Shown: positions 29,961 to 54,649, counted from the first letter of the stretch. The stretch: DNA of 64,000 nt from Oceanotoga teriensis (GCF_003148465.1 NZ_QGGI01000002.1:62001-126000), one strand, 5' to 3'. The notes: generated by a model not told the origin, from the letters alone. A program made the numbers and translations.

Positions 29961-30979
29961 AATTTTTTCCCTCTTTTTTTCATAACATATATAAATAAAG
30001 GCGCTCCGATTATAGAAGTTATTATTCCTATTGGAAGTTCGGAAGGAGCAAAAATTGTTCTGGATATAAAATCACTTATAGTTAAAAAAATTCCACCCGA
30101 TAATATAGATATTAAACTAGAAATTAATGAATATGGTCCTTTAATTTTTCTTACAAGATGTGGTATTATTAATCCAACAAACCCTATTATTCCAGATTTT
30201 GAAACAGCTATAGATACAGCAAATATATTTGTTAAAATTAGTATCATTTTTATTTTTTCTGGATTTACACCAGAATATATTGCCATATCATCACCCATAG
30301 ATAAAACATTTAATTCTTTATTATAAATTATTATTACGATAGTTTGTATTAATAATACTACAGTCAATATAAATATATCTTCCCATGTAATAGAAGCTGT
30401 ACTTCCCATGAGCCATATATTTACATGTATTAAATTTCTCCAAAACATTACTGTTATTAATGTTGTAAATGCATTGAACAAAAAACTAACTATTACACCA
30501 CTTAATATTAAAGATAATACTGGAAATTTTTTTCCTTCTTTTGCCAACATAAATACTATGATTGCAGATATTATAGAAAATATGAAAGAAAAAGTTTCTA
30601 ATCCGAAAAATAAATGTAATCCTAATATACCAGATAAAGCCGTATAAATTACAGCTCCAAAAGAGGCTCCAGAAGATATTCCAAGTATATAAGGGTCTGC
30701 AAGAGGATTTTGAATTATTAACTGTAATATATTTCCAGATAAAGCTAAAATACCTCCAATTATAAAACTACCTAAAATTCTTGGTAATCTCAAATCCATA
30801 ATGAGTAATTTATATGTAGAATTTTCTTGATTAAGAAATAGTGTTTTTATTACTTCTTTTAATGGAATATTTACACTTCCCAAAGAAGTAAAAATTATTA
30901 TAGATATAAAACTTATTATCAAAAGAATAAACAGGAGAGGTATAATCCTCTTCCTGTTTTTAATTTTTTTTATAGTCAT
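29957..30979 (-). CDS. btuC: FecCD/BtuC-family ABC permease
   Basis: A 340-aa integral membrane subunit with about ten hydrophobic segments. Family marks are LRLPRILGSFIIGGILALSGNILQ near residue 60, NPLADPYILGISSGASFGA near 90, and GIIGFVGLIIPHLVR near 265, the loop that contacts the ATPase. It belongs to the type II importers for cobalamin, heme and siderophores. Four-base overlaps join it to genes on both sides. Confidence 0.9.
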   Translation of the reverse strand: MTIKKIKNRKRIIPLLFILLIISFISIIIFTSLGSVNIPLKEVIKTLFLNQENSTYKLLIMDLRLPRILGSFIIGGILALSGNILQLIIQNPLADPYILGISSGASFGAVIYTALSGILGLHLFFGLETFSFIFSIISAIIVFMLAKEGKKFPVLSLILSGVIVSFLFNAFTTLITVMFWRNLIHVNIWLMGSTASITWEDIFILTVVLLIQTIVIIIYNKELNVLSMGDDMAIYSGVNPEKIKMILILTNIFAVSIAVSKSGIIGFVGLIIPHLVRKIKGPYSLISSLISILSGGIFLTISDFISRTIFAPSELPIGIITSIIGAPLFIYVMKKRGKKL

Positions 30980-31857
30980 TTTGACTCCTTTATTATTTCA
31001 TATATTGACTCTAATGCTTCTATTAATGAAGGTGATGCTTGTGAAGCTTTATCATTATTAATTGAAAATATTTTGTTGTTTTTAACAGCATTTACATTTT
31101 TAAATTGAGAAGCTGATTTTAAAGTTTCAATTCCAGAATTATCTCCCATAAAATAAGAAGGAACAATAATTATATCTGGATTTTTAGAAACTATAAATTC
31201 AGGGCCAACAGAAAGCCAACCATTATTTCCAGTATATGGTGAAGCAACATTTAAACTACCAGCGATTGATAGTAATTCATTCATAAAAGAACCTGTTCCA
31301 CTTGTCCAAATTGATGAAATATTTTGACTTGAAATCATTGCATACATAACAGTTGGTTTTTCTGACCAAGTAGATGTTTCTTTAGAAATATTAAGCATTC
31401 TTTCTCTTAAATTTTTTGATAATTTTATTGCTTGTTCTTTTTTATCAATTATAGTTCCTATTAAAACTGTGTCTCTTATTATATCATTTATGGATAATGG
31501 GTTTATAACTATAGTTTTTATATTATATTTTTCTAATCTTTCAAGTTCTTTTTCTTGGAATCCACCAGATATAAATACAATATCAGGATTTAAGCTTATT
31601 ATTTTTTCAAGATTCAAAGGTGTCATATTTCCTATTTTTTCAGCTTCAATGTTATTATCCCAATCAGTAACGCCTACAACAAGATCTTCTGCATTTAAAT
31701 GTTTCAAATAATCAGATACAGCTGGTGCAGCAGAAATTATTCTCTTAATATCTTGGTCTATTTTTACAGGTCTTCCAAGATCATCTATTATTGTAAATGA
31801 TGATAAAGCTATAATTCCTACTAATAACAATAGAACAATACTCAATGCTTTTTTCAT
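30976..31857 (-). CDS. btuF: Periplasmic cobalamin-type substrate-binding protein
   Basis: A 293-aa class III binding protein. A signal peptide (MKKALSIVLLLLVGIIALSS) without a lipobox cysteine leads, then DDLGRPVKI, RIISAAPAVSDYLKHL and NPDIVFISGG in the first lobe, a backbone helix, and NPDIIIVPSYF in the second lobe. This is the BtuF/FecB fold with a rigid linker. Placement behind the B12 riboswitch and before btuC/btuD indicates corrinoid capture. The Shine-Dalgarno GGGAGGT lies 7 bases before ATG and sits next to riboswitch hairpins. Confidence 0.85.
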   Translation of the reverse strand: MKKALSIVLLLLVGIIALSSFTIIDDLGRPVKIDQDIKRIISAAPAVSDYLKHLNAEDLVVGVTDWDNNIEAEKIGNMTPLNLEKIISLNPDIVFISGGFQEKELERLEKYNIKTIVINPLSINDIIRDTVLIGTIIDKKEQAIKLSKNLRERMLNISKETSTWSEKPTVMYAMISSQNISSIWTSGTGSFMNELLSIAGSLNVASPYTGNNGWLSVGPEFIVSKNPDIIIVPSYFMGDNSGIETLKSASQFKNVNAVKNNKIFSINNDKASQASPSLIEALESIYEIIKESK

Positions 31858-31941: not shown

Positions 31942-32078
31942 ATAAATAAAGTATCCCGACTTATGAGTTATATCCTCCAAATTACCCTTCCCGATTTTTT
32001 AATCAGTGGTATGTAATTTTTTGTCCTCAATCACGGTGGCGCGACCGTATTAGATTTTCACTAATTTCCTTTATTTAT
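31942..32078 (-). promoter_or_regulatory. Cobalamin riboswitch aptamer
   Basis: On the minus strand a 10-bp closing stem (ATAAATAAAG with CTTTATTTAT) encloses the conserved elements: GTGAAAATCTAAT, the P5 hairpin ACGGT-CGCGCC-ACCGT, a GAGGAC/CACTG segment, GGGAAGGGTAATTTGGAGGA, and the AAGTCGGGATAC motif just before P1 closes. This is the B12-box architecture of adenosyl/methylcobalamin riboswitches. It heads the btuFCD operon and would repress uptake when B12 is plentiful. Its 5' end is only 16 bases after the bamA stop codon. Confidence 0.9.
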
Positions 32079-32094
32079 TATTTATATATTTTTT

Positions 32095-34347
32095 TTAAAA
32101 TACTTGACCAAATCCAAATTCAAATTTTCCTTTTAAATTTTTGTCCCAACCATATTCAAATCTGATTTGACCCAGTAAAGGAATGTTGAATTTTAAACCA
32201 GTTCCAAAAGACCAAATATTATCATTCAATATATTATTTAAATTATTTGAAGTATTTCCATTATCATAAAAAGCATATATATCAATTGGTACTGGATTTT
32301 TTAATAGTTCATAAGCTAATTCAGTATTGAATAAATACATATTATTACCTTGTTTAGAAGATAAACTATATCTTCTTACACTATTCATTCCGCCAACTGA
32401 ATAATTGAATAAGGAATAAGGATCATTAGAGAATCCGATTTTTAATCTTGTTCCAAAAGTAAATTTATAGAAACTTGTAAAATATTTACCTTCTAAAGTA
32501 TTACCAGTATAATATTGATCTGTGTTATTTAGATTTAATCCTCCAAAAACTCTTGTTGAAAAATATTCTCCCGAATAAGGTCTATATGGATTATCTAATC
32601 TGTTTAATTTGTAACCAATACCAGTAGAAAGTCTTTTTATATCATTTGATTTTAATTTTTGATAATAGTCATAGGATAAATCTGTTGTTATATATGAAAA
32701 ATCTGAAAATTTGAATGAAGGTGAAATAGAAAATGATAAATTATTTGTTATAGAAGCACCTAAAGTTTCTACATATTCACCATTTGGTACTGTTAGATAT
32801 GATGTGCTTAATCCAAGATCTATATCCGTTTTAAAGATTTTTGATACATTATAATTTAATCCGAATTTATATTTATTATTCAAAGGATTTAATTCAGTAT
32901 TTAGTCCAAAAGTTTGACCATAACCAAAAGGATTTGGAATATAAAAACTTAAAGTTCCTGCAAATCCATAATACCAATCTTTTACATCTGGCATAGACCA
33001 AGTTAATCCACCAGCTATCTTAACAGCATTTGTTCTTTCATGTGGATGAATCTCAAAGTCAACAGAGTCTTCTGACATTGAAATAGGATTTATATCAACA
33101 CTTTGGAAAAAACCTGTTCCAGTGAATGCTCTATAGGTATCTTGTAATTTATTTAGATTTACAACTTCATCTTTTTTTAATTTTATTAAATCATCTATTA
33201 TATAATCTTGGGTTTTTGCCGTAGCATCTTTTGTTATTTTTATATTACCTACTTTTTTCTCATTAAAATTATATATTAAATCATTATTTTTGTCTATATT
33301 TACTTTTGTATCAACAAATAAGAATCCTTCTTGTGTATATAATTTATTTATTACATCTAAAGATTTTAAAATATCTAAATTAGAAACAGTTGAGTTTTCT
33401 GTTATTATTTCTGATACCTTTTCATTTAATCTAAAACTTTCGATAGAATCATTACCATTATACTTTATTTTATTTATTTTGGTATTATCATCTATAACTC
33501 TTCTTAATTTTCCATCTAGTACAAGATTTAATTCTCCACCCAAGGATTCTTCTATATCTACGGGTTCCCATTTTATAGAAGTTTCTTCACTAAAATAAGG
33601 TAATGAAGCTATAGAAGACATCAAACCCTGTAATTTTTTTATATCTGGATATGATTCTTTTAATTTTGGCCTAAACAGGAAAAATTTATTTTCATAGTCT
33701 TTTCTAAATTTAAAATTTAGATCTTTCTTTACTTTTTCTTTATCTAATTGGGCATATTCGCCTTCTAATTTCAAATCCCAGAGTTTATATTCATTTATTA
33801 TGAATAATAAAGTATTTTCATCATATTTATTATTATTAATTTCTGTTGCTTCAAGTGTTACTTTATCACCTAATAATTTAATATTAGAACTTATTTCTAT
33901 AGTACTATAATCATTATTCGTATAATATAAATTTATGGAATTGAGTGCTTTTTGAAAGTCATATACATTTAAAGGAATATCTGTTTTTAAATTTAAATAA
34001 TCTTTTAAATCTTTTTTATCGACAAATCCATCACCATATACTTCTATTTCAACATTTTTGACTATTGGATTTGGATTTATTATTAATTTCAAATTTCCAT
34101 TTTCTTCGTCTAATTCATAAGAAAGCGAATTGAAAAAGCCGAGATTATTTACTTGTTTCATTGCTAATTTTATGTCTATATCTCCAACATAATTTCCGAT
34201 TTTTATATCATAATTATTCATAATATTATTTATATCTGTAGCAGCATAAGATATATCTGTACTATACTCTATTGAGTTAAGCTTTGTTATTGAGAATGAA
34301 AGAGTCAATAAAGATAATATAAAGATCATTAGAATTGATTTTTTCAT
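32095..34347 (-). CDS. bamA: Outer membrane assembly protein BamA/Omp85
   Basis: A 750-aa Omp85 protein that folds beta-barrel proteins into the outer membrane (toga). A signal peptide (MKKSILMIFILSLLTLSFS) is followed by about 400 residues of alternating helix-strand POTRA-like modules (for example IVKNVEIEVYGDGFVDKKDLKDYL, and GNIKITKDATAKTQDYIIDDLI). A C-terminal 16-strand barrel includes GGMNSVRRY, corresponding to the VRGY/F motif of the lid loop, and ends in the aromatic terminus GFGQVF. The start overlaps the preceding ATPase gene by one base. Confidence 0.93.
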   Translation of the reverse strand: MKKSILMIFILSLLTLSFSITKLNSIEYSTDISYAATDINNIMNNYDIKIGNYVGDIDIKLAMKQVNNLGFFNSLSYELDEENGNLKLIINPNPIVKNVEIEVYGDGFVDKKDLKDYLNLKTDIPLNVYDFQKALNSINLYYTNNDYSTIEISSNIKLLGDKVTLEATEINNNKYDENTLLFIINEYKLWDLKLEGEYAQLDKEKVKKDLNFKFRKDYENKFFLFRPKLKESYPDIKKLQGLMSSIASLPYFSEETSIKWEPVDIEESLGGELNLVLDGKLRRVIDDNTKINKIKYNGNDSIESFRLNEKVSEIITENSTVSNLDILKSLDVINKLYTQEGFLFVDTKVNIDKNNDLIYNFNEKKVGNIKITKDATAKTQDYIIDDLIKLKKDEVVNLNKLQDTYRAFTGTGFFQSVDINPISMSEDSVDFEIHPHERTNAVKIAGGLTWSMPDVKDWYYGFAGTLSFYIPNPFGYGQTFGLNTELNPLNNKYKFGLNYNVSKIFKTDIDLGLSTSYLTVPNGEYVETLGASITNNLSFSISPSFKFSDFSYITTDLSYDYYQKLKSNDIKRLSTGIGYKLNRLDNPYRPYSGEYFSTRVFGGLNLNNTDQYYTGNTLEGKYFTSFYKFTFGTRLKIGFSNDPYSLFNYSVGGMNSVRRYSLSSKQGNNMYLFNTELAYELLKNPVPIDIYAFYDNGNTSNNLNNILNDNIWSFGTGLKFNIPLLGQIRFEYGWDKNLKGKFEFGFGQVF

Positions 34348-34901
34348 TAAAATCCTCCTTTTAATTCTTTTTCTAAATTATAAATATTTTGTTTTATCTG
34401 TAACATAAATTTAGGAGTATCATATATATTTTCAAATGAGTTTTTTAATTGTTTTGTATCTATTTCATATCCATCATCTAAAAAAGTTCTTTTTATGTAC
34501 CAATTTATTTTAGAGTCGAGATATATAACAAAATAAAGAGCATTTGAAAGATCTCCTAATGGTTGGCAATCAATATTAGTTTTTACAAAAGTTGCATTTA
34601 CAGTTGTACCATTGTTTGGTTTTGTTTTGATATTAAAACTACCACCCGTTAATTCACAAGAGAACTTTAAAAAAGGCAATCCCATGCCAATTTTTTTCTT
34701 CCTCTCTTTTTTTGTAGTATAAAAAGGAGTAAGTGCATTGTTCAATTCTTCTGAATTCATCCCTATTCCATAATCTTTAACTTCGAAAGAAAAAAAATCT
34801 TTGCTTTCGATAATAATTAATTTACATTCTATTGAATTAGACCTTACAGCGTTTTCGCATATATCTATTATATGATCAGAGATTGTTTCTAATGTGGCCA
34901 T
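34347..34901 (-). CDS. GHKL ATPase-domain protein (histidine-kinase/anti-sigma-like)
   Basis: A 184-aa stand-alone HATPase. The N box is IIDICENAVRSNS (about residue 12), the G1 box VKDYGIGM, the linker LTPFYTTKKERKK, and the G2 box IGMGLPFLKFSCELTGG. There is no histidine phospho-acceptor or sensor domain. The C-terminal 70 residues are not recognised. Similar small ATPases occur with PHP and DRTGG genes beside [FeFe]-hydrogenase genes in Clostridia and Thermotogota (known association, from memory). It overlaps the PHP gene by 13 bases and bamA by one. Confidence 0.8.
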   Translation of the reverse strand: MATLETISDHIIDICENAVRSNSIECKLIIIESKDFFSFEVKDYGIGMNSEELNNALTPFYTTKKERKKKIGMGLPFLKFSCELTGGSFNIKTKPNNGTTVNATFVKTNIDCQPLGDLSNALYFVIYLDSKINWYIKRTFLDDGYEIDTKQLKNSFENIYDTPKFMLQIKQNIYNLEKELKGGF

Positions 34902-35614
34902 ACTGGTTTCACCTTACCATTATAGAGTGATTTTTTAAGTTCGTCAAAAGTTCTTGATTCACATTCTAAAATACAAGATGGATTTTTTAACTGATCTGGA
35001 AAATGAGAATCATTACCATAAATAAATCTTTTGTAGCCAAGTTTTTGTGCTTTTATTAATTCGTCTTCATTTTTTACTTCTACTGCATCGAAATCTAATT
35101 CTAAAGGAAGACCAAGTTGATATATAAGTCCAAAAGCTCTAAATATATGTGCCGGATATATTATTGATTTAAATTTTTTAGATAAATTATAAACTTCTTC
35201 AACAGTTAAGTTTGAAGAGCTTCCAAGATATGGAGAGCTTTTGATATCTATAAATTCTGATTTTTCATCGACTAGTATTTGATATCCTAATTTTTCTGGG
35301 TCATAATTTTTTATTATTAGAGTATTTTCAATTATTTTTGAGAATTTTATACACTCTTTTATATATTTAAAATAGATTATGATATGGACTTCTTCAGATG
35401 TTTGAACTTCTATTCCGGGAATTAATTTTATTCCAATTTTATTTAATTGAAAATTAAAAGAATACATATTTTCAGCAGAATTATGATCAGTTATTGAGAT
35501 CCAATCTATTGAACTTGAACTTAAAATATCATTATATATTTCAGGAGTCATAGTTATATCAGCACAGGGTGAAAGAACTGTATGATTATGAAAGCAGCAA
35601 TTATATTTATTCAT
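34889..35614 (-). CDS. PHP-domain metal-dependent phosphoesterase
   Basis: A 241-aa PHP protein. Motif I is FHNHTVLSPCAD (residues 8-19), motif II ITDHNSAENM, then GIEVQTSEEVHI with a metal-ligand Glu/His, YPAHIFRAF, and a closing YGNDSHFPDQL. These supply the His/Asp/Glu set of the trinuclear PHP site, so it is probably active on a phosphate ester or nucleotide (relatives include nanoRNase and PolX nuclease sites). It is coupled to the DRTGG gene upstream by an 8-base overlap. Confidence 0.86.
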   Translation of the reverse strand: MNKYNCCFHNHTVLSPCADITMTPEIYNDILSSSSIDWISITDHNSAENMYSFNFQLNKIGIKLIPGIEVQTSEEVHIIIYFKYIKECIKFSKIIENTLIIKNYDPEKLGYQILVDEKSEFIDIKSSPYLGSSSNLTVEEVYNLSKKFKSIIYPAHIFRAFGLIYQLGLPLELDFDAVEVKNEDELIKAQKLGYKRFIYGNDSHFPDQLKNPSCILECESRTFDELKKSLYNGKVKPVWPH

Positions 35615-35942
35615 TTTTTAGAAGATTATATATTTTGCCAGCAGTTTCAAAAGCATCATTTTCAGAAATTAAAAGAGAAATATCCATTTCTTCTGCTTTT
35701 TTAATTGTTTCTTCAAGATATTTTCCTGGTTTAGGCAGTACAATAGCCTTTGCACCTACTACTTCTGCAACTGCGATTATATTTTGATGAGTTTGATGAG
35801 TTATCCATATACAATCTTTTTTTGCGTCTCTCATCACTTCACTCAATAAATCTCCTATATGGCCAGATATTATATCTGTATCTGTTTTTGATGAATAGAT
35901 AATTTTTAGATCTAATTTTTCTATCATATTTTGTAGAGTCAC
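35607..35942 (-). CDS. DRTGG-domain protein
   Basis: A 111-aa protein with the DRTGG fold: KLDLKIIYSSKTD, DIISGHIGDLLSEVMRDAKKDCIWIT, a middle NIIAVAEVVGAKAIVLPKPGK, then LLISENDAFETAGKIYNLL. DRTGG domains occur in HPr-kinase-like and CBS/DHH proteins and are thought to bind ligands or partners. It lies 3 bases after the CBS/ATPase gene and overlaps the PHP gene; a second DRTGG-like gene precedes that pair. Confidence 0.78.
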   Translation of the reverse strand: MTLQNMIEKLDLKIIYSSKTDTDIISGHIGDLLSEVMRDAKKDCIWITHQTHQNIIAVAEVVGAKAIVLPKPGKYLEETIKKAEEMDISLLISENDAFETAGKIYNLLKNE

Positions 35943-35945
35943 ATT

Positions 35946-36899
35946 TTATTCCCCCTTATTGAAATAAAATAGCATTTCTAATTTTACTCCTTTTCCAGAA
36001 CTTGAAATTAATGTCATTCTATCTGAAAATCTTTTCATATTTGGAAGACCCATTCCAGCTCCAAATCCTTTTTCTCTAACATTTTCAGTAGCTGTAGAAT
36101 AACCTTCTTTTAGAGCAGAATCTATATCTTCTATACCTTTTCCAAAATCTTCGATGAATACTTTAATTTTATCTTCTTCTGTCCAACAATATAATATTCC
36201 ATTAGACTCTGAGTGAATTACAACGTTTGCTTCTGCTTCATATGTAGAAATAGATATTTTTCTTATCAATTCTGGATTAATATTTTTAGAAGTTAAAAAT
36301 TTTTTTAATTTTGTTGCGGCTATTCCTACCATTTCTACAGATTTATAATCTATAGAATATTTAAAGTCATATCCTTCAGTTTCAAAATTTTCTCCAGTTA
36401 TAGAAGATACATAATTTTTATTTAAAACTTTATCCCTTCTTTCATCATGAACATATATATAGCCAAGCTTTTTAAACATCCATTCTAATATATCAATTTT
36501 TGTTACCACGCCAACGACTTTTTTCTTAGAATTTATTACAGGATATCGTCCAAATTTCTCATTTTTATTTAGTTCTAAAAAAGTCATAATTGTATCTTCT
36601 TCATTTAAAAAAATTGGTTTTTTTGTCATCCATTTTTCGACACGTTCTTCTAGACTATTATTTTCAATTACTCTTATTATATCTTCTATACTTAAAATTC
36701 CGCTTAGAGTTAAATCTCTTTTTATAACAGGCATTCCAGATATTCCTTTTATTCTCATTATTTCTTTAGCGTATTTTAATTTAGTTTCGCCAGTGACTAG
36801 AATTGGTGGAGTGGTCATAATTTCATTTATTAAAGTGTTAGAAAAAACTTTTGATAATGTACTTACTAATTTATCAACTTCATTTTTATTTTCTAACAT
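35946..36899 (-). CDS. CBS-pair protein fused to an anti-sigma-type ATPase domain
   Basis: A 317-aa two-part protein. Residues 20-150 form a CBS pair (MTTPPILVTGETKLKYAKEIM and WMTKKPIFLNEEDTI), which normally senses adenine nucleotides. Residues 170-315 form a GHKL domain with the N box ISTYEAEANVVIHS, G1 IEDFGKGIED, and G2 GFGAGMGLPNMKRFSD. This joins an energy-state sensor to an RsbW-like kinase. It overlaps the upstream DRTGG gene by 7 bases. Partner protein unknown; a STAS protein exists in the same gene block. Confidence 0.84.
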   Translation of the reverse strand: MLENKNEVDKLVSTLSKVFSNTLINEIMTTPPILVTGETKLKYAKEIMRIKGISGMPVIKRDLTLSGILSIEDIIRVIENNSLEERVEKWMTKKPIFLNEEDTIMTFLELNKNEKFGRYPVINSKKKVVGVVTKIDILEWMFKKLGYIYVHDERRDKVLNKNYVSSITGENFETEGYDFKYSIDYKSVEMVGIAATKLKKFLTSKNINPELIRKISISTYEAEANVVIHSESNGILYCWTEEDKIKVFIEDFGKGIEDIDSALKEGYSTATENVREKGFGAGMGLPNMKRFSDRMTLISSSGKGVKLEMLFYFNKGE

Positions 36900-37270
36900 A
36901 ATTGATCATCCGTTCCCATAGCATCTTTAATTCCACTTTTGAATAAAATCGCGCATGCCATATACATAGAAAGGGAGGATTTTATGATACAAACCTCTAA
37001 ATCCTCCGCTATTTCTTTTAAATTTTCTGGAATTTCTTTTCCCCTAACAAATATTATTCCTTTTGCACCTATTACAGCAGCTGTGGTGATTGTTTGAGGA
37101 CTTGTTAAGCCAGTTATTAAGAACATATTTTCTTTTGAAAAGGCAAGAAAATCGCTCATTAAATCAGAAGCTCCGGCATATTCAATATTAAAGTTTTTAA
37201 TACTTTCAGGTAAAACTATGGCAGATCCTTTAACAATTTTAATTAACTCTTGTATATTCAAAAGTATCAT
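36893..37270 (-). CDS. DRTGG-like domain protein, second copy
   Basis: A 125-aa protein similar in layout to the 111-aa DRTGG gene nearby: GSAIVLPESIKNFNIEYAGASDLMSDFLAF, a central TAAVIGAKGIIFVRGKEIP strand-loop, and a final SLSMYMACAILFKSG helix. It lacks the classical DRTGG string, as do many members. It sits 4 bases after thyX and overlaps the CBS/ATPase gene, so the two DRTGG copies bracket that sensor. Confidence 0.7.
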   Translation of the reverse strand: MILLNIQELIKIVKGSAIVLPESIKNFNIEYAGASDLMSDFLAFSKENMFLITGLTSPQTITTAAVIGAKGIIFVRGKEIPENLKEIAEDLEVCIIKSSLSMYMACAILFKSGIKDAMGTDDQLC

Positions 37271-37274
37271 CTCC

Positions 37275-37976
37275 TTATAAGAGATCTCCTGTATAATTAT
37301 GGTTTATAAAAGCTTCAAAACTCCATGGACAAATTTCTTTTACTATTTCAGCCATTGCCCTTGCATATTCTTGTATTTCCCATTGAGCATGAGAATCAGC
37401 TCTCAGATTAAAAAAATGAAATAAAGCTCTTAAATTAGTTGTTAAATAGAACTCTGTATATTGACCAACTGGTAATACCATTCTCGCCATTTCTCTTGCA
37501 ACACCTTTATTTAAAAGATTATTATATATATTATAAGATTCCATATAAGCATTTTCTATCAAATTTATACATTCTTGTGAAAGTTCAGAGTTTTTTATTT
37601 TTATACTACCCTGTTTATTTTCTTTATCAGGAGTTCTTATATGATCTGGTATATAAAATTCATCAGCTTGTTTTGAAGTATATCTCCTTGAAATTTCATT
37701 TGGAGACATTCCAATCCTATGTCTAAACCATTGTCTAACAATAAATATAGGTGCTTTTACATGAAATGTAAAACTTATATGTTCAAATGGTGAAAAGTGA
37801 GAATGTTTTAAAAGATAGTTAATTAATTTTTTATCTCTTTCATCTGTAGAAATTTCTTGACCATAAGAAACTCTTGCTGCTCTTACAGCAGATCTATCAT
37901 TTCCCATTTGATCTATTAAAGTTACAAACCCTTTGTCAAGTATTTTGATTGTTTTTTTCTGATTCTCCTGCATCAT
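37275..37976 (-). CDS. thyX: Flavin-dependent thymidylate synthase
   Basis: A 233-aa ThyX, which makes dTMP from dUMP with methylene-folate and FAD. The family signature is present as RHRIGMSPNEISRRYT (about residue 85), with FSPFEHISFTFHVKAPIFIVRQWFRH before it and a C-terminal RADSHAQWEIQEYARAM. ATG 37976 suits an AAAGGA site; an earlier ATG (37988) abuts it. The start lies inside the end of the upstream gene, with 41 bases of overlap. It is the only thymidylate synthase in view. Confidence 0.95.
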   Translation of the reverse strand: MMQENQKKTIKILDKGFVTLIDQMGNDRSAVRAARVSYGQEISTDERDKKLINYLLKHSHFSPFEHISFTFHVKAPIFIVRQWFRHRIGMSPNEISRRYTSKQADEFYIPDHIRTPDKENKQGSIKIKNSELSQECINLIENAYMESYNIYNNLLNKGVAREMARMVLPVGQYTEFYLTTNLRALFHFFNLRADSHAQWEIQEYARAMAEIVKEICPWSFEAFINHNYTGDLL

Positions 37977-39108
37977 TATTTTCTTCATCCTTTCTTTTGT
38001 TTTTTTTAAATTTATTTATATTCAATAATAATATTCCAAATATTATTACGAATAAACTTAATGGAATTATATATGAGAACAATCCTGTTATTTTTGTTTC
38101 CTTGTCTATTTCTTTGAGGAGTTTTATTATTTCAGGGTCATTATTTTTGTAATAAAGAGCTTTTTGTAAATATAATCTCGATATTAATTTATCTTTTGAA
38201 GTTTTATAATATTCCATTCCAATCTTTCCTAAAGAATTAGGATTTTTTTCATCATATTCTAAAGATTTTTTATAATTATTAATTTTTTGAGTTGAAGTAC
38301 TCGATATATCTCCAAGAATTTCATAAGTAGAAGATAATATTGATTTTTTATTTGAATTATTTATCAACCATTCAAGAATATTTCTTGTTATGTTTTCTTT
38401 TTCCATTTCTTGAAAAGCTTTTGCAAAAAGAATCATTGTTTTTTCGTCTTTTTTGTTTAAAGTGGTATATACAGAATATAATTCTTCTATTTTATCATAT
38501 CTTTGAGATTCATAACTTAAACGAACTATTAATTGGCTCAATTTTATATTATCTCTATTATTATTGTACATTTTTTCTAAATTTTCATAAGCTTTTGAAG
38601 GATTTGAATTTATTTTTGAATACCATTGTATAATACTTTTATAGTATACTGTAAATGGTGACTCTCCATTTAATTTTTCGATTTTTTCTATAGATTCCAT
38701 TATTAGTTTTTCTTTTGTTGCATTATATTCTTCAGTTAGAGATTTATAAGCAAATTCTATGTAAAAAGCATTTATTATGACAGAATCTTTATAGAGTTTT
38801 GATAGTTCATAAAGTTTTTTTTCAGGAATATTTATTTGATTTGGTAATGTTTCTGATAATATGTTTAAAACAGCAGATTCATCTGCAGAAAAATCATTAT
38901 ATATTCTTGCTCTTAATAAATTAGCAGTATTTTTGTATTCTTCATTTGAAGTTTCCAAAAATTTTAAATATAAACCTAATGTATTCAATTTATTGTTTTC
39001 TTGATTTATTAGAGAATCGGTATCGAATATTTGTAAATATTGTTCAAGATCTCCTCCAAATATTACTATATTGGATATAATTAATAAAACTATTATTAAT
39101 TTTTTCAA
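37936..39108 (-). CDS. TPR-like membrane-anchored protein
   Basis: A 390-aa protein. A hydrophobic N-terminus (MKKLIIVLLIISNIVIFGG) acts as a signal or anchor. About 300 residues of helical repeats follow, with TPR-like spacing (EILGDISSTSTQKINNYKKSLEY, NSLGKIGMEYYKTSKDKL), then a C-terminal transmembrane helix (YIIPLSLFVIIFGILLLNI) and a basic/acidic tail. TTG at 39108 is preceded by GAGGA and gives the compact signal peptide; an upstream ATG is less likely. Probably a periplasmic scaffold. Its end overlaps thyX. Confidence 0.65.
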   Translation of the reverse strand: MKKLIIVLLIISNIVIFGGDLEQYLQIFDTDSLINQENNKLNTLGLYLKFLETSNEEYKNTANLLRARIYNDFSADESAVLNILSETLPNQINIPEKKLYELSKLYKDSVIINAFYIEFAYKSLTEEYNATKEKLIMESIEKIEKLNGESPFTVYYKSIIQWYSKINSNPSKAYENLEKMYNNNRDNIKLSQLIVRLSYESQRYDKIEELYSVYTTLNKKDEKTMILFAKAFQEMEKENITRNILEWLINNSNKKSILSSTYEILGDISSTSTQKINNYKKSLEYDEKNPNSLGKIGMEYYKTSKDKLISRLYLQKALYYKNNDPEIIKLLKEIDKETKITGLFSYIIPLSLFVIIFGILLLNINKFKKNKRKDEENNDAGESEKNNQNT

Positions 39109-40508: not shown

Positions 40509-40913
40509 CTATATTAAAATTTTTTTCAAAATCATTAAATTACCATCATTACAATATACCCATTGAGGTTTTCCAAATACCTGTTCTATTATGTAGACTC
40601 CAAGTCCTCCATCTCTTATATTATCTAAATCTCTATGTTTTATATTTTCAGGTATTATTTTCTCACCATAATCTCTGATTTTTATGGTTAATACGTCATC
40701 ATCATATTCTATTGATAAGTCTATTTTTTTATTTTCTTCGTATTTATAAGTGTGTTCTATAATATTTGCAATAGCTTCATTTAAAGCTAATTCTATCATA
40801 AATATTTCATCTTCATTTTTATATTTTATTATAGTGCAAAAATCTTTCATCATATTTCTTAAAAGTTTTATATAAATATTTTTACTTGGTATACTTATTT
40901 TTACGAAGTCCAT
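40509..40913 (-). CDS. RsbW-like anti-sigma/serine kinase ATPase
   Basis: A 134-aa stand-alone GHKL domain of the RsbW/SpoIIAB type. The N box is MIELALNEAIANIIEHTYK (about residue 40), the G1 box IKIRDYGEKI, and G2 GGLGVYIIEQVFG. Such proteins phosphorylate a STAS antagonist and bind a sigma factor or other output. A STAS protein is encoded in the same gene block at 45370-45672, but not adjacent. No sigma factor is in the window. Confidence 0.86.
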   Translation of the reverse strand: MDFVKISIPSKNIYIKLLRNMMKDFCTIIKYKNEDEIFMIELALNEAIANIIEHTYKYEENKKIDLSIEYDDDVLTIKIRDYGEKIIPENIKHRDLDNIRDGGLGVYIIEQVFGKPQWVYCNDGNLMILKKILI

Positions 40914-45369: not shown

Positions 45370-45672
45370 TTATCCCTCCTGCATAATATTTAATATTTTG
45401 GTAAGTCCAACCATATCTAATAATTTTAGTATTTTATTGTCCACATTTTTTATGGTTAAACTTCCTCCTTTTAATAAGGAATTTTTATGAATACCTATTA
45501 GCATTCCAATTCCAGAACTATCTATATATTTTACATTTGTAAAATCTAATATTATTTCTTTTAATTCAAATGAATTAATTCTATTTTTTACATCATCGAC
45601 ATTTGACATATCGATTTCTCCATTTAATTTTATTATTTTTTTATCATGTTCTTCCTGAAGTATTATTTCCAT
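45370..45672 (-). CDS. STAS-domain anti-sigma factor antagonist
   Basis: A 100-aa single STAS domain of the SpoIIAA/RsbV type. Strand IIKLNGEIDMSNVDDVKNRI leads into VKYIDSSGIGMLIGIHKN, where the serine in DSSG is the usual phosphorylation site. ATG 45672 has GGGAGAGG 5 bases upstream. It follows lexA. The RsbW-like ATPase at 40509-40913 is the natural partner candidate within this block. Confidence 0.88.
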   Translation of the reverse strand: MEIILQEEHDKKIIKLNGEIDMSNVDDVKNRINSFELKEIILDFTNVKYIDSSGIGMLIGIHKNSLLKGGSLTIKNVDNKILKLLDMVGLTKILNIMQEG

Positions 45673-45700
45673 ATTAACCTCTCCCAGCATACATTTTAAT

Positions 45701-54524: not shown

Positions 54525-54558
54525 CATTTATATAAAAATATTTTATAAAAACAAAAAT

Positions 54559-54633
54559 CCCTCCTATAGTCAGATAATTTACGGTTATCTGGTAGAAACT
54601 TCCGAACCATATCTTCGGAAATATACAGGAAGA
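54559..54633 (-). promoter_or_regulatory. Guanine-type purine riboswitch aptamer
   Basis: On the minus strand P1 is TCTTCCTGTA with TATAGGAGGG, P2 TTCCGAA / TTCGGAA with loop GATATGG, J2/3 GTTTCTACC, and P3 CAGATAA / TTATCTG with loop CCGTAAA. The specificity base in GACTATA is C, as in guanine-sensing members (T in adenine ones). A closed P1 would free the terminator arm and stop transcription of the permease when guanine or hypoxanthine is abundant. Confidence 0.95.
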
Positions 54634-54649
54634 CGAAAAAGTATTAACT

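Follow-up and report, generated by a model that had tools for sequence, protein, structure and literature searches.

A DRTGG-PHP-GHKL cassette in Oceanotoga teriensis carries a CBS-fused ATPase, whereas clostridial counterparts carry a group D sensory hydrogenase

Group D (M2e) sensory hydrogenases are represented by TamHydS, which lacks Cys299, carries Ser353 and a C-terminal cluster, has no PAS domain and whose gene precedes those of a bifurcating hydrogenase (PMC8163306). The group D genes Cthe_0335, Athe_1292 and TTE0887 are located five locus tags ahead of HydABC (PMC3561251). The published accounts of these loci that were found mention no components other than the hydrogenase, a regulator and either a histidine/serine kinase or a kinase-like ATPase (PMC3561251, PMC8163306, PMC3608648), and signal transduction by group D sensory hydrogenases is considered an open question (PMC8163306). 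Here, we analyze a related five-gene cassette found in a stretch of 64,000 nucleotides of the Oceanotoga teriensis genome (NZ_QGGI01000002.1:62001-126000; hereafter the window). The cassette encodes two small DRTGG-fold proteins (D1 and D2), a CBS pair fused to an RsbW/SpoIIAB-type GHKL ATPase (CBS-ATPase), a predicted PHP-fold phosphoesterase (PHP) and a lone GHKL ATPase. It shares homologous proteins and the order DRTGG-ATPase-slot-DRTGG-PHP-ATPase with the group D HydS loci upstream of HydABC (Cthe_0335 with Cthe_0340-0342; TamHydS), but it lacks HydS both in the slot and in the genome, carries CBS domains fused to its first ATPase and adjoins bamA instead of hydABC, hydrogenase adjacency being found in Clostridia and in one Thermotogota family (f5). 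A slot that is filled by HydS in Clostridia, whereas a CBS fusion without HydS is present here, is the main point that goes beyond the original prediction, which had been made from the window sequence.

The clostridial counterpart was studied in about 70 loci from a scan of public genomes and in 20 genomes drawn evenly over the class Clostridia, in which PHP is present in 135 of 291 genomes. The genes follow the order DRTGG, RsbW-type ATPase (approximately 140 amino acids, no CBS), an Fe-S protein of 430 amino acids, DRTGG and PHP, after which NuoE, the lone ATPase, a 2Fe-2S thioredoxin-like protein, NuoF and HydA are encoded, with NuoE coming first in some loci. Within these hyd operons, the orthologue of the lone ATPase is flanked by NuoE or PHP on one side and by the 2Fe-2S thioredoxin-like gene on the other. 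In the 20-genome draw, the first five genes are uninterrupted in 17 genomes, contain an insertion in two and are reduced to PHP alone in one; downstream, nine loci run into hydA, five into rnfC/rnfD and five into neither, and one is cut by a contig end. In Alkaliphilus, the set lacks the 430-amino-acid gene and lies directly upstream of rnfCDGEAB. Since clostridial cassettes precede hydABC or rnf, their common context is ferredoxin/NAD-linked electron transfer and extends beyond hydrogenase alone. The association of similar genes with hydABC operons, as given in the original prediction, is therefore correct, and tighter than had been stated. As a separate observation, five clostridial loci (L266, L267, L270, L271 and L277) contain a HydS-PHP-NuoE-ATPase-Trx-NuoF cluster that leads straight into rnfC/rnfD with no hydA between, which suggests NuoEF-like subunits or a sensor module wired to Rnf.

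The 430-amino-acid protein matches PF02906 and carries ferredoxin-like clusters near its N-terminus and an FeS motif at its C-terminus. The H-cluster cysteines 300, 355, 499 and 503 and the C-terminal FeS cysteines are kept in all 85 of these proteins; position 299 is Ala in 71 of the 85, position 353 is Ser or Thr in every one and position 497 varies. These features agree with those published for TamHydS (PMC8163306). In addition, the published five-tag spacing (PMC3561251) agrees with the cassette layout. These proteins can be assigned to group D HydS, a label that is based on residue marks and gene position and not on a phylogeny that includes TamHydS.

The presence of HydS and the fusion to CBS are mutually exclusive. 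With HydS counted by a length and score filter that keeps RnfB out, none of 79 CBS-fused ATPases (73 from Thermotogota and six from elsewhere, including Delongbacteria, Omnitrophota and two Verrucomicrobia) has an adjacent group D HydS, whereas 85 of 90 unfused ATPases outside Thermotogota do. The five unfused copies without HydS are accounted for by two contig-end truncations, two Rnf-linked Alkaliphilus loci and one locus in Nitrospirae, and the exclusion is significant outside Thermotogota alone (Fisher p=5e-7). In a tree of the ATPase domain, the fused proteins from Thermotogota form a single clade and the remaining fused proteins one or two groups, which indicates that the input was exchanged one to three times.

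Among 103 Thermotogota genomes, in which D2 genes were located by profile-guided gene calls, 82 encode PHP and 80 encode the CBS-ATPase. Both occur together in 80 genomes, PHP occurs alone in two (both assemblies are incomplete), the CBS-ATPase never occurs alone and 21 genomes have neither (Fisher 6e-20). Families f4, f8 and f10 contain a split set, with (thyX-)(D1-)CBS-ATPase at one site and D2-PHP-ATPase(-bamA) at another. PHP and the CBS-ATPase are therefore co-inherited even where they are unlinked, which argues for a joint function with two sub-units. Sixty of the 82 PHP loci lie before bamA and eight, all of family f5, before the NuoE gene of a hydrogenase cluster; eight others lack the lone ATPase (gltX, judged by sequence, comes next in the one that was inspected) and six have other contexts. 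The module is kept without bamA in families f4, f5 and f11, and thyX adjoins D1 across several families. As a side observation, response regulator or MotA/MotB-like genes replace bamA after D2-PHP-ATPase in some Thermotogota (L142, L149, L130 and L131).

In the PHP tree, all Thermotogota sequences form one clade (support 100/99), and several of its deep branches show the bamA context, indicating that the position seen in the window is old. A recent relocation from a hyd operon is ruled out by the same observations: homologues are not uniformly found beside hydABC, and the bamA position is class-wide. A strict tie between cassette and hydrogenase can also be dismissed for Thermotogota, as 17 of the 103 genomes have hydA and no cassette. 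Conversely, hydA was not found in four cassette-bearing Thermotogota genomes, all of them incomplete or highly fragmented.

The O. teriensis genome (Thermotogota; 2.79 Mb in 45 contigs) was searched for hydrogenases with PF02906. Three genes of this type were detected, none of which adjoins cassette genes, in agreement with the original prediction that the cassette lacks adjoining hydrogenase genes. Two have NuoE/NuoF neighbours and are of the hydABC type (contigs C32 and C27; loci L114 and L115). The third, at C2:141176 (L116), is a group-C-like HydS approximately 40 kb from the cassette, in an operon that encodes a 2Fe-2S protein, a PAS protein, a SpoIIE-type PP2C, a second 2Fe-2S protein and the HydS (L116:7266-10905; C2:138.3-141.9 kb), and represents a putative second H2 or redox sensor. 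This group C HydS/hfs-type operon resembles the HydS-linked cassette in being a putative H2/redox-sensing module tied to hydrogenase, but its gene set is different and contains no DRTGG, PHP or CBS parts. No group D HydS was matched in the whole genome or between CBS-ATPase and D2; the protein that comes closest to HydS has no C-terminal cluster and displays Cys299, Gly353 and Met497. The description of the cassette as free-standing holds for its position, while a distant effect on hydrogenase may exist, because the genome carries hydABC loci, albeit without cassette genes.

All proteins named by the original prediction were recovered using Pfam, the wider families and structure models. The CBS-ATPase scores above the Pfam cut-offs for CBS (5.6e-23) and HATPase_c_2 (6e-8). 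The G-x-x-S/T-x-x-D ribose-phosphate motif is intact in each CBS repeat in 79 of 80 fusions, and the boxes E-x-x-x-N, D-x-G-x-G and GxGxG are conserved in the homologue alignment. Its ATPase domain and matching boxes are shared with the RsbW/SpoIIAB anti-sigma kinases (TIGR01925, E=4.6e-15), but it reaches 55.7 bits against an equivalog cut-off of 135, is fused to CBS and has no STAS partner in the module. The lone ATPase also exceeds the Pfam cut-off (HATPase_c, 4.4e-13); since this match starts at residue 12 of a protein of 184 amino acids, there is no room for a DHp domain, and none is present. D1 and D2 fall below the PF07085 (DRTGG) cut-off (1.4e-3 and 6e-3; 18.9 and 16.8 versus 25.2 bits). 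The assignment stands because 30 of 34 members of the wider D1/D2 family match PF07085 (best 2.2e-10) and because the D1 model matches DRTGG structures, with template modelling (TM) scores of 0.75-0.78 against 2IOJ and 0.72 of the query against 3L31/3L2B. The matches of this confidently predicted model comprise AF1212, a DRTGG protein, and the CBS-DRTGG unit in the Clostridium perfringens pyrophosphatase. D1 and D2 each constitute a conserved subtype of their own, and that of D1 extends from Thermotogota to Clostridia. They share an invariant D-x-x-S, a candidate phospho-site or contact, and an invariant T; the motifs W-x-T and N-I-x-A-V are found in D2 alone.

PHP scores just below the Pfam cut-off (PF02811, 3e-5; 24.9 versus 26.4 bits), and a clostridial homologue reaches 37.9 bits. 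Nevertheless, the full set of metal ligands that had been claimed is present (H9, H11, D43, H44, E69, H77, H156, D202 and H204) and shows a conservation of at least 98% across 148 homologues, and a near-invariant L-S-P-C ... M-T-P motif marks the cassette subfamily. The model has a predicted local distance difference test score (pLDDT) of 96.6 and its fold matches PHP enzymes. The nearest solved structures, EndoQ, TM0559, BAD_1165, RNase AM and Cv1693, act on nucleotides or nucleic acids, at an identity of only about 17%. TM0559 was considered as the cassette PHP of Thermotoga maritima and rejected, as its identity is only about 16-18%.

Taken together, the homology, the shared gene order, the HydS/CBS exclusion, the co-occurrence and the intact catalytic residues are consistent with the Thermotogota cassette being a form of the cytosolic signalling module built around group D HydS in which an adenine-nucleotide (CBS) input has taken the place of the H2 sensor, an interpretation for which we see about an even chance. 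Proteins of the RsbW/SpoIIAB type are ATP/ADP-sensitive switches and kinases. An adenine-nucleotide input is the most likely one, because HydS is absent and tandem CBS domains are fused to an ATPase of this type. A further precedent is the CBS-DRTGG family II pyrophosphatase, which combines a CBS pair with a DRTGG fold and responds through its CBS domains to AMP/ADP as inhibitors and to ATP and diadenosine polyphosphates (ApnA, including Ap4A) as activators, DRTGG itself being given little role (PMC11172384); adenylates are thus the first guess for the CBS ligand. In its fold, D1 corresponds to the DRTGG portion of this regulatory unit, which binds AMP and Ap4A (PMC11172384). However, the pyrophosphatase unites these domains and a DHH catalytic core in a single chain, whereas in the cassette the parts are spread over separate small proteins together with a GHKL ATPase.

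We would propose the following scheme for the ligand, the target of the kinase, the substrate of PHP and the output. In place of H2, the module would respond to adenine nucleotides, either AMP/ADP/ATP or diadenosine polyphosphates, and their binding to CBS would switch the fused ATPase/kinase, with D1 and D2 as its partners, in the role of scaffolds or of targets. A second ATP-dependent switch may be provided by the lone ATPase, which would form a second arm with PHP; PHP would remove a small phosphoester, probably a nucleotide, and thereby reset or carry the signal. The output would adjust ferredoxin/NAD(H)-linked electron disposal. Several observations argue against this interpretation. The cassette is neighboured by thyX and bamA, not by redox genes, in the O. 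teriensis genome and in most Thermotogota; it is not needed for hydrogenase, because several lineages that keep hydA have lost it entirely; the Alkaliphilus copies have neither CBS nor HydS; and most of the evidence for the exclusion comes from two large clades, with about six other lineages in addition, which amounts to few independent swaps.

The original prediction had proposed that a nucleotide signal may be synthesized or degraded by PHP. If this signal were read by CBS, the module could be a second-messenger system with no special tie to electron flow in Thermotogota. The conserved active site, the nucleotide and nucleic acid substrates of the nearest solved relatives and the joint inheritance of PHP with an unlinked CBS-ATPase are in line with this explanation, but the low identity to those relatives weakens the comparison and PHP is equally conserved in the clostridial module, which has no CBS, so that its product need not be the CBS ligand; overall, we regard it as unlikely. 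The module could also be an accessory for the assembly or activity control of Fe-S/flavin oxidoreductases (HydABC, NuoEF, Rnf), with GHKL ATPases and DRTGG proteins acting on the complex and not on transcription. This appears improbable: the module does lack any DNA-binding protein and its lone ATPase is encoded inside hyd operons beside nuoE and a 2Fe-2S gene, but hydABC loci have no linked cassette in the O. teriensis genome and most Thermotogota, and several lineages have hydA without the cassette.

Recruitment of the Thermotogota module to envelope biogenesis, with control of bamA (or of thymidylate supply), is suggested by the frequent position before bamA across deep branches and by D2-PHP-ATPase staying with bamA even after the CBS-ATPase has left. 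We consider it highly improbable, since three families keep the module without bamA and the conserved adjacency of housekeeping genes within one class can be plain synteny. Finally, a sigma-factor partner switch, in which the RsbW-like ATPase phosphorylates a STAS protein encoded upstream, has the slightest chance. A STAS gene with a D-S-S-G motif does lie in the same co-directional run, approximately 8.5 kb upstream of the cassette, but a stand-alone RsbW encoded nearby is its more obvious partner, and STAS genes are absent from the module here and at the other loci examined; the genome encodes four STAS proteins in all. The stand-alone RsbW gene itself is conserved at the same place in sister genera.

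The survey names likely downstream parts of group D HydS signalling, namely two DRTGG proteins, an RsbW-type ATPase, PHP and a lone ATPase. These core parts form a unit that is found both in the presence and in the absence of the H2 sensor, and provide a natural experiment in which the same core is combined with a nucleotide-type input. The pathway is testable with small soluble proteins, in lineages that are used for biological hydrogen. It is conceivable, although on balance doubtful, that the cassettes belong to a widespread unrecognised pathway for ferredoxin/NAD flow, with swappable inputs (H2-sensing HydS in Clostridia, adenylate-sensing CBS in Thermotogota and further phyla), a DRTGG-PHP-GHKL core and a new nucleotide signal turned over by PHP. 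No published description of the module was found in a literature search that most subscription papers lay beyond; the hydrogenase-associated regulatory locus itself is known, with its mechanism uncharacterised, and it is the CBS-input form that is new.

The five cassette genes are intact and lie between thyX and bamA, as originally described (Table 1). They had been reported as five overlapping genes; the positions and most of the overlaps hold (7 bp for D1/CBS-ATPase, 8 bp for D2/PHP and 13 bp for PHP/lone ATPase), but CBS-ATPase and D2 are separated by a 3-bp gap. The genes for PHP, the DRTGG pair and the CBS-ATPase are each present in a single genome copy. The tight co-directional run includes the stand-alone RsbW, fapA and a TPR gene as well as thyX, the cassette genes and bamA, the last of which overlaps the lone ATPase gene by one base; gaps within the run are at most 15 bp or are replaced by overlaps. 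A promoter scan yielded no excess over shuffled sequences and was not used.

Table 1. Positions in the window of the cassette genes, their neighbours and other features discussed.
Feature	Position	Strand	Remarks
D1, small DRTGG-fold protein	36893..37270	-	125 amino acids; model pLDDT 95.2
CBS pair fused to RsbW/SpoIIAB-type GHKL ATPase	35946..36899	-	317 amino acids; CBS, HATPase_c_2
D2, second DRTGG-fold protein, distinct conserved subtype	35607..35942	-	111 amino acids; GTG start
PHP-fold metal-dependent phosphoesterase (predicted)	34889..35614	-	241 amino acids; conserved metal ligands
Lone GHKL ATPase, conserved C-terminal tail	34347..34901	-	184 amino acids; HATPase_c
thyX, upstream neighbour	37275..37988	-	TIGR02170 2.7e-67
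bamA-type outer-membrane protein, downstream neighbour	32095..34347	-	POTRA 7.9e-11
Stand-alone RsbW	40509..40913	-	
STAS protein	45370..45690	-	D-S-S-G motif
Cobalamin riboswitch, then terminator-like hairpin	31949..32071	-	
BtuF-like binding protein	30976..31857		
Purine riboswitch aptamer	54547..54648	-	Rfam RF00167, 88.7 bits

Between bamA and the gene for a BtuF-like binding protein, a cobalamin riboswitch is followed by a terminator-like hairpin, where the bamA operon probably ends. A purine riboswitch aptamer was also detected elsewhere in the window.

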